In this document: piece after piece, positions 4,706-30,246 of the stretch | How the letters are laid out: each line of letters starts with the position of its first letter | Numbering within the stretch: the first letter of the stretch is position 1 | NCBI GenBank assembly: GCA_016183235.1 | Contig: JACPFA010000041.1 | Location: 1 to 57,184, forward strand | DNA: 57,184 nt | Source of the DNA: Deltaproteobacteria bacterium | GTDB taxonomy: Bacteria > UBA10199 > DSSB01 > JACPFA01 | Direction of reading: 5' to 3' | Notes under the pieces: generated by a model | The model's database searches: none | Told to the model about the DNA's origin: nothing | What the model saw: the letters and a program-made list of their open reading frames with translations, nothing else | Position numbers and translations under genes: made by a program

Positions 4706-4749
4706 AGATTCTTTGTCACTATGGATCCCGGATCAAGTCCGGGATGACG
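4706..4749. repeat. Interspersed palindromic repeat (CCGGGATC type)
   Basis: GATTCTT then ATGGATCCCGGATCAAGTCC pairing with the following GGGATGACG; the TCATCCCGGACTTGATCCGG class seen again at 6903, 24210 and elsewhere. Confidence 0.7.
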
Positions 4750-4785: not shown

Positions 4786-4843
4786 TTGACATTAGATGAT
4801 CTGGATCATTAGCGTTAATTCAACAAACAATCCTTTAAGGAGG
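4786..4843 (+). promoter_or_regulatory. Promoter, palindromic operator and RBS of the precursor/MNIO locus
   Basis: TTGACA (4786-4791) is followed by the palindrome ATGATCTGGATCAT (4796-4809), whose half-sites differ by one base each from the FNR/CRP-family pattern TTGAT-N4-ATCAA. The palindrome lies between -35 and a weak -10 (TAGCGT), a place where binding would repress. A strong AAGGAGG ribosome site lies at 4837-4843, five bases before the ATG. Confidence 0.5.
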
Positions 4844-4848
4844 AAAAA

Positions 4849-5235
4849 ATGGTTAAGAAGAATCAATTATCAAAGTGGATGTTAGGGTCTGCTGTTGCAG
4901 GGTTAGTCGTTTCTGGGGGTATTTTCCAACATAACGTTTTGAGTGTTGGCTATAGCGTTGCTCATGCCGAAGAACAAGCTCCGGCAAAAGATGAAAAGGC
5001 TAAAGACGAAAAGACTGCCAAAGATGAAAAAGCCCCGGCAAAGGATGAAAAGGCTAAAGATGAAAAGACTGCCAAAGATGAAAAAGCCCCGGCAAAGGAT
5101 GAAAAGGCCAAAGATGAAAAGGCCAGCAAAGAAGAAAAAGCCAAAGATGAAAAAACTGCTAAAACCAAAGATGCTTCTTGTGGTCAAGGCAACTGCGGGG
5201 CCAACATGAAAGACGAAAAGGCCAAAACGAATTAG
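4849..5235 (+). CDS. Secreted Lys/Glu/Ala-rich Cys-Gly precursor peptide (HvfA-like)
   Basis: A 128-residue protein: an N-terminal signal/transmembrane segment (residues 12-40, AHA cleavage site), a spacer of tandem KDEKAKDEKTA units, and a C-terminal core SCGQGNCGANM followed by a short tail. Signal-peptide-bearing, low-complexity precursors with CGxGxCG cores next to DUF692/DUF2063 genes are known as HvfA/bufferin-type ribosomal peptides whose cysteines are oxidised by the MNIO enzyme and bind metal. Here the enzyme gene starts 3 bp downstream, so co-expression is near certain. Only one core motif is present, instead of the several EGKCG units usual in HvfA. The product chemistry is inferred. 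Confidence 0.75.
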   Translation: MVKKNQLSKWMLGSAVAGLVVSGGIFQHNVLSVGYSVAHAEEQAPAKDEKAKDEKTAKDEKAPAKDEKAKDEKTAKDEKAPAKDEKAKDEKASKEEKAKDEKTAKTKDASCGQGNCGANMKDEKAKTN

Positions 5236-5238
5236 GCT

Positions 5239-6918
5239 ATGGTTAATTATAACAGCACCGTTCAAAAATTAGGTGTTGGAATTGGGTTGAGGAGGGAACA
5301 CTTCGATTCCCTCCTCTCAAACCCACCGGGTGATGTTGATTTTTTTGAAATAGCCCCCGAAAATTATCTGCAAATCGGTGGGCGCAATTTTAACAAGTTT
5401 TGTCAAATCGCTGAGCGCTATCCCCTATTAGCCCACGGGTTGAGCCTTTCGATTGGCAGCGTTGACCCGATCGATTTTGAATTTCTCAAACAACTCAAAA
5501 AATTTTTAAACCAATTTAAAATCCCTTGGTTTAGCGAACATTTGTGTTTTGCTTCGGTGAAGGGGGCACAATTTCATGATCTCATTCCACTAACTTTTAA
5601 TGAAGCAAGCTTAAAGCACGTGGTTGCACGAGCAAAAGTAGTTCAAGATTTTTTAGAAATGCCCTTGGCCTTAGAGCATGTTTCTTATTATGCAACGTTA
5701 GGTGAAAATGAAATGTCGGAGGCCGAATTTGTAAGCCGAGTGGTGGAAGCAGCCGATTGTGCCCTCCACCTCGATATTAATAATGTTTACGTTAATGCAG
5801 TCAACCATGGTTACAGCCCTTATGAATTTTTAGATCAAATGCCCTTGCATCGGGTGATTCATGGCCATATGGCCGGGCATTATCAAAAATTGCCCGATTG
5901 GTTGATTGATACGCACGGGGCGGCGATTATTGAGCCGGTTTGGGATTTGCTTCGCTATGTGAGCCAAAAGTTAGAATTCCCGGCCATTCTGGTGGAGCGC
6001 GATCATAACCTGCCACCGGTAGAAGAAGTGTTAGCTGAGATGCGGCAGATGCGGGAGGTCTTAGAAAGGTCGAGAAAAAGTGTCATCGCAAGCAATGTCA
6101 TCCCTGCGCAAGCAGTGATCCATGATGATGCAACAATCTCGAATGGTGGGATTGCTTCGCCCGTTGGGCTCGCAATGACAGGAGAGGTGCAAGAAAATTG
6201 GCACAAACTCATCTTTGCTGAACAGGGTGAGTTTGTGTTTGATGGCCTGCCTGCAAAAAAACGCGAGTGCTTAGTTTTTTATCGTGAAGCGGTCTTTAAA
6301 ACTTTACGTGAAACAATCACCAGCTGTTATCCTATTAGTGCGGCCATTTTAGGGGCCGAGTGGCCTAGACTGATTCGCGAGTTTTTGGTGCAAGCGCCGC
6401 CCCAAAATCATTTATTAAAATTTGTTTCGGAAGAATTTTATCGGTTTTTTAAAAAGTGCGAATACCCTTTGAAGCGGCGGTTTCCTTATTTAGAAGAATT
6501 GTTGGATTATGAATTGTTGGAGTTGTTGTTACTTTATCAAGAAGAAATTGAAGATTGCTTCGCTAACGCTCGCAATGACATGGTAGTTTTTAACCCCGTT
6601 ATGGTGATTCGCCAATATGCATGGCCGGTGCATTTTATTAGTGAAAAAAATTGTGATTTAGAAAAGTTGCCGGTGGGGCAGTATTATCTTTGTGTTTATC
6701 GAGATCCCAAAACATTGGCAGTCAACTTTATGGAAGTGAATGCTGGGATTTATGAGTGGTGGCAAGGGGGGCTTGAAAAGCCTAAAGCGATCGAGGCATC
6801 TTTGAAAGAATGGTTACAAGAAATACCGTTCGAATTGCAAGGGGCCTTCAAAGAACAATTTTTTGCATTTGTGCAGGTAGCAATGGAGAAGGGAATACTT
6901 CACGTCATCCCGGACTAG
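5239..6918 (+). CDS. DUF692 (MNIO) - DUF2063 fusion enzyme
   Basis: A 559-residue fusion. Residues 1-275 are a DUF692 TIM barrel, the multinuclear non-haem iron oxidase family that modifies cysteines of ribosomal peptides. Candidate metal ligands are visible: H66 (AHG), E100/H101 (SEHL), H147 (LEHVSY), D179 (HLDINN), H208/H210 (IHGHMAGH), D224/H226 and E253 (VERDHN). Residues 320-559 resemble DUF2063, the usual separate partner that engages the precursor. The linker (about 281-315) is encoded by a dispersed palindromic repeat, and a second repeat lies in the DUF2063 part (438-448). The last codons and stop lie in a third repeat. Fusion of the two partners is uncommon and may have been created through the repeat. 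Confidence 0.85.
   Translation: MVNYNSTVQKLGVGIGLRREHFDSLLSNPPGDVDFFEIAPENYLQIGGRNFNKFCQIAERYPLLAHGLSLSIGSVDPIDFEFLKQLKKFLNQFKIPWFSEHLCFASVKGAQFHDLIPLTFNEASLKHVVARAKVVQDFLEMPLALEHVSYYATLGENEMSEAEFVSRVVEAADCALHLDINNVYVNAVNHGYSPYEFLDQMPLHRVIHGHMAGHYQKLPDWLIDTHGAAIIEPVWDLLRYVSQKLEFPAILVERDHNLPPVEEVLAEMRQMREVLERSRKSVIASNVIPAQAVIHDDATISNGGIASPVGLAMTGEVQENWHKLIFAEQGEFVFDGLPAKKRECLVFYREAVFKTLRETITSCYPISAAILGAEWPRLIREFLVQAPPQNHLLKFVSEEFYRFFKKCEYPLKRRFPYLEELLDYELLELLLLYQEEIEDCFANARNDMVVFNPVMVIRQYAWPVHFISEKNCDLEKLPVGQYYLCVYRDPKTLAVNFMEVNAGIYEWWQGGLEKPKAIEASLKEWLQEIPFELQGAFKEQFFAFVQVAMEKGILHVIPD
6081..6182. repeat. Composite palindromic repeat inside the DUF692-DUF2063 linker
   Basis: The sequence begins TGTCATCGCAAGCAATGTCA and ends GGGCTCGCAATGACA. 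It combines the GCAATGTCATCCCTGCG element seen at 14657 and 27279 with a TTGCTTCGCCCGTTGGGCTC half seen at 52348. It is read through in frame with no stop. Confidence 0.85.
6551..6580. repeat. Short repeat copy inside the DUF2063 domain
   Basis: AAGATTGCTTCGCTAACGCT followed by CGCAATGACA; matches the minimal intergenic form at 42102-42128 almost exactly and is translated in frame as EDCFANARND. Confidence 0.75.
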
Positions 6919-6963
6919 ATCCGGGATCCACCAACATAGATTCCGGCTCAAGGCCGGAATGAC
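6903..6963. repeat. Tandem CCGGGATC-type palindromic repeats at the fusion gene's 3' end
   Basis: Two palindromes in a row: TCATCCCGGACTAGATCCGG and ATTCCGGCTCAAGGCCGGAA. The first supplies the TAG stop codon of the fusion gene and its last residues HVIPD. Confidence 0.75.
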
Positions 6964-20988: not shown

Positions 20989-22362
20989 CTATTTCTGAAT
21001 AACTAGCGGGTTTTTACTTGGGTCAGCCGATACCAGCCGATATTCAACAATCTTTTTCAATGCCTTGGCAAACAACGGGGCTTCTCCGCGCGGGATGTTA
21101 ATCGTAGCGCCGGTAGGGATGGGTTTGCCTTCATGCAGATAAGGGTCTTTTAAACCCAAGTTTAATCTTACCAAAACATCTTTAGAAAGACCGGTTTCAT
21201 TAGCCAGGTCATCGAGGCTTGCTTCTTGGGAAAGAGGGAATTTTTCTAGCAGGGCAGGGGGTTCTTTTTTGATCGAGCCAAAATATTTAGAATAATTTTC
21301 AGCTGTTTCTAAGGCTGCCAAAAAAGAAGGAAAGAAATTGCGTGAAGCAAAACCATAACTCCCGCCGCGGTATTGCGTAATAATCGTTGCAATGTCGGTG
21401 GTACCCAGCGTGTCAATGGCCCGGCGCAAACTCCCTCGCCCAGAATTGTAGGCGTTAATGGCCAAAGGCCAAGTGCCCAAGGCCTCGTAATTGCTTTTGA
21501 GGAGTTTAGCGGCAGCATGAGTTGCACTCAAAGGGTCGTTGCGTTCATCGACAACGTCATTAATATTAAGGTAAAGTTTGCCCGTGCCTGGCATAAACTG
21601 CCAAAGCCCACTGGCCCCCACTTTGCTGATCGCTTTGAAATTAAACATCGATTCTACAAAGACTAAACGAGTAATTTCGGAAGGTATGCTATAAGAATTA
21701 AAAATTTCTTCCATCTGAGGCAAATAAGTCCCACTTGCCGCAATGGCGCTCATAAATTTATTTTTCATCGCAGTTTGGGAACGCAGGCGTGCTGGTGTGG
21801 CGGCTGTTTTAAAACGCTCAGGTTCAGTGACATTTTTAAAAAAATCGTAAATCTTTTTTTCATCGGCATTAAGATCAGCCAATGCAGTGGTCCCCATATC
21901 GACATCGTGGAGTTTTAACAAGATCGTTCGAATGCGCTCCATCTCGGTGTCTACTTGCAGACCCTTCATTTCTTTTTTTTGTTGGGGGGTAAGATAGGGG
22001 TCACCCAAAATTTTTGAAACATTGATAACCGCATAAACAATATCTAAGTGTTCGGTATCGTGGAGGAGCACATAATTGTCGTCATATTTAGAATAAATGC
22101 TTTTCCAAAAATCAACTTGGGGCCGCAGCTCGGGGGGTGTTTTAAAGCTGTGATGAAGCAGTTTGCGCCCTGGAGGAGTGAGGGTTTCAGCTTTAGGGGT
22201 TTTGCGTTTGGCATGCAAGGGAACCAGAGGTAAAACTAGGAGTAGAATTGTCATTACAACCAGGCTTGTCAGGGCGAGATTGCTTCGCGGACGCTCGCAA
22301 TGACAGATAATAGATGTCATTGCGAGGAGGCATTTAGGCTGACGAAGCAATCTTTTTTTCAT
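20989..22362 (-). CDS. mltD: Lytic transglycosylase (MltD-like, SLT domain)
   Basis: Cleaves the glycan strands of peptidoglycan. The SLT domain contains the catalytic Glu in RLVFVESMFNFKAISKVGAS and the GLWQFMPGTG and AINAYNSGRG motifs. A LysM-like C-terminal region (LSQEASLDDLANETGLSKDV, ending INIPRGEA) follows. The start is unclear: the frame opens at 22494 inside a repeat. An ATG at 22362 gives MKKRLL plus a hydrophobic leader TSLVVMTILLLVLPLVPLHA interrupted by about 25 repeat-encoded residues; an ATG at 22254 would start inside the hydrophobic part. The first is preferred because it supplies the basic n-region of a signal peptide. Confidence 0.85.
   Translation of the reverse strand: MKKRLLRQPKCLLAMTSIICHCERPRSNLALTSLVVMTILLLVLPLVPLHAKRKTPKAETLTPPGRKLLHHSFKTPPELRPQVDFWKSIYSKYDDNYVLLHDTEHLDIVYAVINVSKILGDPYLTPQQKKEMKGLQVDTEMERIRTILLKLHDVDMGTTALADLNADEKKIYDFFKNVTEPERFKTAATPARLRSQTAMKNKFMSAIAASGTYLPQMEEIFNSYSIPSEITRLVFVESMFNFKAISKVGASGLWQFMPGTGKLYLNINDVVDERNDPLSATHAAAKLLKSNYEALGTWPLAINAYNSGRGSLRRAIDTLGTTDIATIITQYRGGSYGFASRNFFPSFLAALETAENYSKYFGSIKKEPPALLEKFPLSQEASLDDLANETGLSKDVLVRLNLGLKDPYLHEGKPIPTGATINIPRGEAPLFAKALKKIVEYRLVSADPSKNPLVIQK
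22262..22350. repeat. Palindromic repeat in the leader of the transglycosylase gene
   Basis: CGAGATTGCTTCGCGGACGC, TCGCAATGACAG, then TGTCATTGCGAGGAGGCATT and GACGAAGCAATCT; lies between the putative MKKRLL start and the hydrophobic core of the signal peptide. Confidence 0.8.
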
Positions 22363-22417
22363 AGGGAATTTATTACAACCTTCTCTCAAAGAAAAAACAA
22401 GAAAAAATTGCATAATC

Positions 22418-22532
22418 ATGTCACGTATGGATCCCGGGTCTAGCCCGGGATGACGCAATACCGTCATGCCGGACCTGATCCGGCATCCATTCATTCATTC
22501 TGAACCCAGCAGGGCGAAGCAATCTTCTGTTT
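22418..22532. repeat. Composite repeat, copy 2 of a CCCGGGTCTAG type
   Basis: Same sequence and orientation as 20880-20988, with an extra CATT unit in the CATTCATTCATT stretch. Confidence 0.85.
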
Positions 22533-28551: not shown

Positions 28552-30246
28552 ATGGGTGTCGCAGGTGCTGGAAAACAAGATCCTGCTGCCAAAGCGGCCG
28601 AAGCGGCCAAGGCAGCTGAGGCGGCAAAAGCGGCCGAAGCGGCTGCCCACGCCGATGGAGCCACAACTCCACCGCCTGCCCAAGATGGCGGTGAAATGGG
28701 TGCCACCGGTGCCACCGATGAAGCCCAAGGCGGCAAGGTAGCAGGCCAGCCCAACGCCGATGCTGGTAAAAACGTTAAGCCCGATCCCAATGCCACCAAG
28801 CCCCCACCTGAAGATGCAGCTGTTTCAGAACCTGAACTCACCGATGCAGATTTTCTCGGCAATTTGAGTGACAATTTTGCCAACCTTCCTGAAGAGGCCC
28901 GCAAACTAGCCCAAGACATGGTTAGCCAAGTTAGAAATATGATGGGCCTGGTGCAACGGATTACCCAAGATACAGTTCAGCAAGATAAAAAAACCGATGA
29001 TGCCAAGGCGGTTGATCAAGATGTTGCTAGAACCGCAGAAGCAAACAACGCCGATGCTAAGCAGACCGAACGAGCCCAGGCGCAGGCTCGTACTGCTGGT
29101 GCAACGCGAGCCGAAACGGGTTTTGGTGCATCGCCTAAACAGCAACTTACGGCCTTGCTGGAAAAGATGGGCAAATTGTTTCAAGAAAAATTTGCACCTC
29201 CCAAGGCCTTGGCAAAAGGTGATGGCAAGGCAACTCCAGAGGGTGCAAAGCCTGAGGGCGCCGCAGCCAAACCTGAGGGTGAAGGGTTTGTAGCCACAGG
29301 CACCAAACCTACGGTTGAACATGAAGGAGCTGTGGTTCGAAATCGGCATGTTGCTAAAGTTTATGATGGCAAGGTTTATGAGGGCGATGCGGGCAGACGA
29401 CATCATGGTCATAAGGTGGCTAACCGCAGCGACACTAAACGTGCTGAAACCCGTAGGGCGGGTGAACAATATGCTACTCGATTAGCTGGTGACAAGAGCC
29501 GCGAATTAGATGCTAAGCGCCGTTTAGAAGATGTGCGTCGCCAAGCGGAATTAGCAAAAGCAGAAGCAGGCGAAGTTAACGAAGGCGATCAACTCAAAGC
29601 CGACCAACGAGTGGCTGCAGCGGCAAAACCTAAAACCGAAAGCACTTTAGAAAAAGAACGCATTGCCGCAGAATTGGGATTAAAGGTTGTGGAAGAGGAG
29701 ATTGCTTCGTCGGAGACTCCTCGCAATGACAGAATCGATGTCATTGCGAGCGCAGCGAAGCAATCTCTCTTAGACGAACCTGAAGAACTCGCCAGCTTCG
29801 AAGCCTACGGCCCCCGGGGCACCGACCACGAAGAAAGCGGCCTTAAAGCGGCTGATCGATCCGCAAAATTTAGAGGTTTGGAAGGCGGCAAAGGGACAAA
29901 TAATCCCGAGGGTCGCTATGCCATCCGTCACGTAGCGAAGTTTAATGGGCAAGGCGCTGATTCTGATTTGCCAGAGTCGTATCAAGAAGGCATGCCCAAT
30001 ACAGGCGAAATTCACGATGAAAAAGGCCAAGCCGTGGCAAGTTTTCAACCTGGCACCATCATGGGCAGCCAGTTCAACGATGCGCGTGGGCGCTTAGTAA
30101 ACCCATGGAACCCCGCAAGCGTGATCACCGATCAGGCCGCCGTAGAAAAAATCGTAGCCGCCCGCCAATTTTTAACCCGCATTAAATTAGAAGGCGCCCT
30201 ATTGCCCGAAGACGCACGAGAAGCCGCCGCCGGGGCAAAGTGCTAA
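28552..30246 (+). CDS. Large Ala/Lys/Glu-rich low-complexity protein
   Basis: A 564-residue protein, not recognised. It starts with KAAEAAKAAEAAKAAEAAA repeats, continues with Pro/Gly/Asp-rich disordered sequence, a helical segment near residues 103-140 (LTDADFLGNLSDNFANLPEE), Ala/Lys-rich stretches and a Cys as the last residue. There is no signal peptide or membrane segment. About 23 residues (383-405, EIASSETPRNDRIDVIASAA and following) come from a dispersed repeat pair read in frame. The composition resembles the 739-residue protein at 33651. The upstream TAGGAG ribosome site supports the ATG at 28552. Confidence 0.6.
   Translation: MGVAGAGKQDPAAKAAEAAKAAEAAKAAEAAAHADGATTPPPAQDGGEMGATGATDEAQGGKVAGQPNADAGKNVKPDPNATKPPPEDAAVSEPELTDADFLGNLSDNFANLPEEARKLAQDMVSQVRNMMGLVQRITQDTVQQDKKTDDAKAVDQDVARTAEANNADAKQTERAQAQARTAGATRAETGFGASPKQQLTALLEKMGKLFQEKFAPPKALAKGDGKATPEGAKPEGAAAKPEGEGFVATGTKPTVEHEGAVVRNRHVAKVYDGKVYEGDAGRRHHGHKVANRSDTKRAETRRAGEQYATRLAGDKSRELDAKRRLEDVRRQAELAKAEAGEVNEGDQLKADQRVAAAAKPKTESTLEKERIAAELGLKVVEEEIASSETPRNDRIDVIASAAKQSLLDEPEELASFEAYGPRGTDHEESGLKAADRSAKFRGLEGGKGTNNPEGRYAIRHVAKFNGQGADSDLPESYQEGMPNTGEIHDEKGQAVASFQPGTIMGSQFNDARGRLVNPWNPASVITDQAAVEKIVAARQFLTRIKLEGALLPEDAREAAAGAKC
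29698..29766. repeat. Inverted repeat pair read through in the 564-residue gene
   Basis: GAGATTGCTTCGTCGGAGAC, TCCTCGCAATGACAG, then TGTCATTGCGAGCGCAGCGA and AGCAATCTC: two complete palindromic halves, both in frame. Confidence 0.9.

Follow-up and report, generated by a model that had tools for sequence, protein, structure and literature searches.

A natural MNIO-DUF2063 fusion joined by dispersed repeat DNA in a RiPP locus of the oxazolin/captophorin type

In a genome of Deltaproteobacteria bacterium (GCA_016183235.1), two adjacent genes on contig JACPFA010000041.1 (whole analysed stretch, 57,184 nucleotides, hereafter the window) form a locus of the oxazolin/captophorin type, a RiPP class that is already known. 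What is new, judged from the DNA sequence, is that the junction of the fused enzyme encoded there is made of dispersed repeat DNA. We regard the locus as a genuine variant of its class that probably functions, in which the origin of the fusion is unusual and well supported. The full account that we favour, and consider fairly likely, is that of a single-chain maturase, fused through a repeat, which would oxidize the cysteines of an exported, copper-binding peptide. The features are as follows.

4722 to 4749, minus strand: CGTC-type dispersed palindromic repeat 5' of the operon, an inverted copy of 6903-6930 (58 genome copies at ≤2 mismatches; reversed-pattern control 0)
4837 to 4843, plus strand: AAGGAGG, the ribosome binding site for the precursor, from sequence
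4849 to 5235, plus strand: RiPP precursor, 128 aa, with homologues among the precursors of same-order relatives (signal peptide and C-terminal CGxGxCG shared)
4849 to 4968, plus strand: Sec signal peptide, residues 1-40, with a putative cleavage site VAHA/EE (sequence; alignment with relatives)
4987 to 5160, plus strand: KDEK array of 54-nt units, where relatives have KCxxD cysteine arrays
5170 to 5199, plus strand: core DASCGQGNCG, two xxxCG 5-mers with Cys111 and Cys116 (layout of the FonAPE core EAKCGEGKCG)
5239 to 6918, plus strand: fused MNIO-DUF2063-RRE maturase, 559 aa
5272 to 6063, plus strand: MNIO domain, HvfB-like
6081 to 6181, plus strand: composite dispersed palindromic element, ~101 bp, encoding linker residues 281-315 (repeat matches; pLDDT below 50 at residues 287-307)
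6253 to 6447, plus strand: DUF2063 domain, HvfC-like (Pfam; family profile matches 3DEE)
6553 to 6580, plus strand: second in-frame repeat, residues 439-448 (DCFANARNDM), in the loop between DUF2063 and RRE (23 genome copies at ≤2 mismatches, two other exact copies, control 0)
6592 to 6870, plus strand: RRE/NGO1945 C-terminal domain (Pfam)
6903 to 6930, plus strand: CGTC-type repeat encoding the final codons and the TAG stop (HVIPD*) (58 genome copies at ≤2 mismatches, control 0)

Domains and predicted structure of the maturase

The reading frames and Pfam matches confirm the arrangement given in the original prediction, namely a precursor with a signal peptide, a gap of 3 nt (between the last base of the precursor stop codon, 5235, and the enzyme ATG at 5239) and a single MNIO plus DUF2063 chain. 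PF05114 matches residues 12-275 (E = 2e-98; 329 bits against a cut-off of 25; profile positions 1-262 of 263 covered), and is followed by PF09836 (DUF2063, residues 339-403, E = 3e-10) and PF22106 (NGO1945_C/RRE, residues 452-544, E = 1e-8), both over their cut-offs. These matches far exceed chance. The 2.6 Mb genome, which is 98% complete, has one match to PF05114 and one to PF09836, both in the 559-aa frame. The best NCBIfam models are HvfB (NF003818; 334 bits, below the curated equivalog cut-off of 360) and, for the second half, HvfC (NF050145; 95.9 bits, below the curated cut-off of 142). As in PME-type 1 partners, DUF2063 is followed by an RRE-type domain, but the partner, usually a separate protein, lies here within a single 559-codon frame.

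Ten residues of the MNIO half (H66, H101, E146, D179, N182, H210, D224, H226, E253 and D255) are invariant across the 36-row alignment, and mapping via 3BWW indicates that the known iron-site residues are present, in line with the metal ligand set proposed for this DUF692 half. By the same mapping, N182, D224 and H226 correspond to N175, D242 and H244 of HvfB, each essential in HvfBC (PMC13419390); mapping by motif places the FonB catalytic base D249 at D255 and FonB R15/R16 at R18/R19. H256 occupies the site of FonB Phe250, where the Lys-Cys group has Phe. Changes specific to this maturase at conserved sites are P119T and N147H, the latter adjoining E146. The DUF2063 half is 28-33% identical to those of same-order relatives, versus 43-91% among the relatives themselves.

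The AlphaFold model of the maturase, which predicts the fold of both halves, has a mean pLDDT of 89.6 and a pTM of 0.88 with an alignment of 57 rows, seven of which are neighbouring genes with the stop read as Gln, used solely for domain register. Predicted pLDDT falls below 50 only at residues 287-307, within the repeat-encoded linker, which is thereby predicted to be disordered between two confident domains. A large joint alignment (A4) was discarded because DUF2063 rows fell onto the MNIO region, and it was replaced by A6 with bridging rows. The best PDB match of the model in Foldseek is 3BWW (TM 0.90 to target), with TglH and MbnB also found. A phmmer search with the partner half alone gave no PDB relative; the profile of the partner family matches PDB 3DEE.

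The precursor and its relatives in the order and phylum

The precursor begins with a KK n-region, a hydrophobic h-region and the cleavage-like site, followed by the KDEK array, and it carries DASCGQGNCGANM close to its C-terminus with the only two cysteines of the protein. No Pfam or NCBIfam family exceeds its cut-off for this sequence, and the bufferin precursor family DUF2282 (PF10048) has no match up to E = 1. Since DASCGQGNCG shares the layout of EAKCGEGKCG, the minimal substrate of FonBC, what had been described as a single core amounts to a double site of minimal size: the SCGQGNCG motif is there, consisting of two adjacent 5-mers. Position 3 of the 5-mers is Ser or Asn rather than Lys, and KC motifs are present in the homologous same-order precursors. 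Cys111-GQGN-Cys116 has the cysteine spacing of the CxxxxC precursor family (PMC12452194). The single core had also been called unusual, but a two-cysteine precursor is not unique: others occur in L012, L089 and L125, and precursors with 1-18 cysteines were reported earlier (PMC12452194).

The fused protein served as query against seven genomes of the same order. Six of them have a full MNIO, in each case followed by a DUF2063 gene in a frame of its own; some of these frames overlap or nearly abut (e.g., L007, L009). Gene order and direction, precursor-MNIO-DUF2063, are the same as in the window. The window precursor aligns with eight precursors located before MNIO genes, and the alignment with those of relatives runs from the signal peptide (KKLLLGSALAGL against SKWMLGSAVAGL) through the C-terminal CGxGxCG. 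The assignment to a RiPP class with a Sec-exported precursor, as predicted from the start, is supported. Cysteines number 6-12 in the same-order precursors, mostly in KCxxD-type arrays, versus two in the window, where KDEK repeats stand instead. The comparison of cores and domain fusion across related genomes, which had been proposed as a check, shows separate enzyme genes and homologous, cysteine-rich precursors in the relatives. The separate genes, the absence of the relatives' cysteine array from the precursor and the repeat-derived linker had all been missed.

Across the phylum, MNIO matches were found in 19 of 46 genomes, and a frame of fusion length is present only in the window (560 versus 117-348 aa). 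The phylum contains two types of MNIO: the same-order loci (L003-L009) have one of the Arg-Arg, EGKCG-like type with KCxxD precursors, and most of L010-L022 have one of the Arg-Thr type with CKGKG precursors of about six cysteines.

The fusion junction consists of dispersed repeats

The MNIO part of the fused protein ends where the MNIO of relatives ends, and the partner begins within ~10 residues of the relatives' starts. Thus, the junction element occupies the site where a stop and a start codon would be expected. Its right arm, GGTGGGATTGCTTCGCCCGTTGGGCTCGCAATGACA (6145-6181), recurs once more in the window without a mismatch and dozens of times in the genome in near-identical form; its left half matches a different repeat type, TGTCATTGCGAGCAATGTCATCCCTGCGAAGGCAGGGATCCATGATG, at no fewer than five places. 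In a search of the genome with the linker DNA, 60 dispersed-repeat matches were listed, the linker itself among them. The outer ends of the element, TGTCATCGCAAGC and GCTCGCAATGACA, form imperfect inverted repeats, like those of other elements. As RNA, the element shows no more folding than its shuffled versions do (z = -0.77).

The 559-codon frame is open despite three repeat insertions, which suggests selection on the product. Elsewhere in the window, repeat ends lie inside long frames (29721-29750 within 28552-30246, plus strand; 22278-22325 within 20989-22494, minus strand), and repeats placed in frame may therefore be a common feature of the genome. REP elements that encode 20-30 residues within genes are already known (PMC3733652). 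The intragenic REP/RPE elements described there are likewise palindromic and include a CGTC-tagged type; the element of the window differs in that it additionally fuses two partner genes. It is a concrete case of repeat elements making multidomain proteins out of neighbouring genes.

Natural fusions are rare but recurrent

A set of 80 MNIO loci taken from other genomes contains no fused MNIO-DUF2063. A sample of 274 genomes from the class to which Shewanella belongs yielded three true fusions (L163, L164, L166). Frame length proved unsuitable as a fusion count: of the eight DUF2063 frames in this sample that exceed 400 aa, only these three are fusions, the others being stop-to-stop reads across an overlapping MNIO gene. 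A further fusion, WP_207604143.1 (598 aa, L137), is encoded in a DUF2282 operon on plasmid p4 of Rhizobium bangladeshense and corresponds to two genes in a sister strain. These cases indicate that natural fusion is rare but recurrent and apparently independent, so that the original view of the fusion as unusual stands as to rarity and not as to uniqueness. The four proteins have the same domain order in one chain as that of the window, and L137 differs in sitting with a DUF2282 bufferin precursor. No description of a natural MNIO-DUF2063 fusion was found in the passages covered of three MNIO papers.

Comparison with characterized systems

The oxazolin locus HvfABC of Haemophilus influenzae (PMC13419390, PMC13097082) shares with the window a Sec-exported cysteine precursor, an HvfB-type MNIO with the N175/D242/H244 residues kept and an HvfC-type DUF2063 plus RRE protein. 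It differs in that HvfB and HvfC are naturally separate and HvfA has six modified cysteines, versus two cysteines and one enzyme chain here. According to a preprint (PMC13419390), the yield of product was markedly higher with HvfB fused directly to HvfC than with the two coexpressed, which makes the fusion of the window look like a natural counterpart. The C-terminus of HvfB was joined to the N-terminus of HvfC in the identical domain order; that fusion is direct and made in the laboratory, whereas the natural one has a repeat-encoded linker of ~35 residues. As a counterpart of the more active engineered HvfBC, the fused enzyme would offer a natural maturase in one chain, with two sites in its substrate, for study of the mixed-valent di-iron mechanism.

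FonBC modifies both cysteines of EAKCGEGKCG and does not modify a single repeat; it tolerates several changes at the first three 5-mer positions, with Ala, Arg or Thr accepted at position 3 (PMC13097082). The fontiphorin system FonABC, of the captophorin class (PMC13097082), resembles the window in its double 5-mer core and in the Arg pair of the Lys-Cys group, kept as R18/R19, and differs in having Lys at position 3 (Ser/Asn in the window) and Phe250 at the site of His256. MovX (PMC13419390, PMC12452194) also combines an MNIO and a substrate-recognizing RRE-type C-terminal domain in one chain; unlike the enzyme of the window, it has no DUF2063 partner, and it modifies a C-terminal Asn.

Proposed function and alternative explanations

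The sequence shows that all parts have homologues, that the enzyme is fused, that its linker derives from repeats and that the known site residues are retained. The chemistry, export, copper binding, activity and order of events we infer, with the family pointing to conversion of Cys to 5-thiooxazole, Sec export and binding of copper as the most likely function. The RRE of the fused enzyme would bind the precursor, and the linker would hold the MNIO iron centre 1:1 with the DUF2063/RRE partner. The iron centre would oxidize both cysteines of DASCGQGNCG, Cys111 and Cys116, with 5-thiooxazoles as the most likely products, after which the peptide would be exported by Sec, lose its signal peptide and bind copper in the periplasm, where a single Cu(I) might sit between its two rings. 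The cysteine oxidation and copper binding originally proposed are accordingly to be viewed as likely by homology. The narrower proposal, that the repeat-fused maturase turns a minimal core into a methanobactin-like periplasmic peptide with two rings and one copper, is tentative and somewhat doubtful. The fusion itself may have arisen when a dispersed palindromic repeat inserted where two genes overlapped or nearly abutted, thereby opening the frame. Counted against the favoured account are the missed HvfB and HvfC cut-offs, P119T, N147H and H256, the diverged DUF2063 half, the lack of cysteine arrays and the lack of metal-related neighbours.

The main rival is a locus in decay, in which cysteine arrays were lost, repeats are invading the gene of the enzyme and the fusion product is inactive or nearly so. 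The drop from 6-12 cysteines to two, three repeats within one gene, the strong divergence of the DUF2063 half and the substitutions P119T and N147H would all fit, yet the frame is still open through the three insertions, the known site residues are retained, both halves are modelled with confidence, the signal peptide and CGxGxCG are conserved and two-cysteine precursors are known from unrelated genomes. We consider decay unlikely. Still less probable is the release of two products, with a free HvfC-like protein arising from an internal start at the in-frame ATG 6175 in the repeat, just ahead of the partner domain, or from proteolysis of the linker, whose predicted disorder would make it accessible; no ribosome site precedes 6175, and the repeat RNA lacks folding beyond that of shuffled sequence. 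Misjoining of two stretches at the repeat during assembly is very improbable: the junction coincides exactly with a dispersed repeat, a classic place for such errors, but the only PF05114 and PF09836 matches of a nearly complete genome are both here, the genes have the order and direction found in relatives, no stop interrupts the frame at the join and the element is only ~100 bp long. That the true substrate lies elsewhere and the KDEK protein is merely an unrelated periplasmic protein rich in Lys and Glu can practically be dismissed, as its failure to reach any Pfam or NCBIfam cut-off is outweighed by its alignment, signal peptide and CGxGxCG included, with eight equally placed pre-MNIO precursors.

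Surroundings of the locus

No DoxX, sigma/anti-sigma or metal genes adjoin the precursor-maturase locus of the window. In some same-order relatives (L004, L009, L021), the DUF2063 gene is succeeded by an ECF sigma factor gene and then by an anti-sigma-like gene; the window lacks both. A perfect inverted repeat, ATGATC-TG-GATCAT (ATGATCTGGATCAT, 4796-4809), lies directly after TTGACA and is a possible operator; it was not seen upstream of the relatives' precursors. The near-identical CGTC-type repeats at 4722-4749 and 6903-6930 form an inverted pair that flanks the operon, 2.1 kb apart. Farther upstream (270-2857) are toxin-antitoxin-like genes, comprising a RelE-like gene paired with an HTH gene, and a HipA-like kinase accompanied by an HTH partner.
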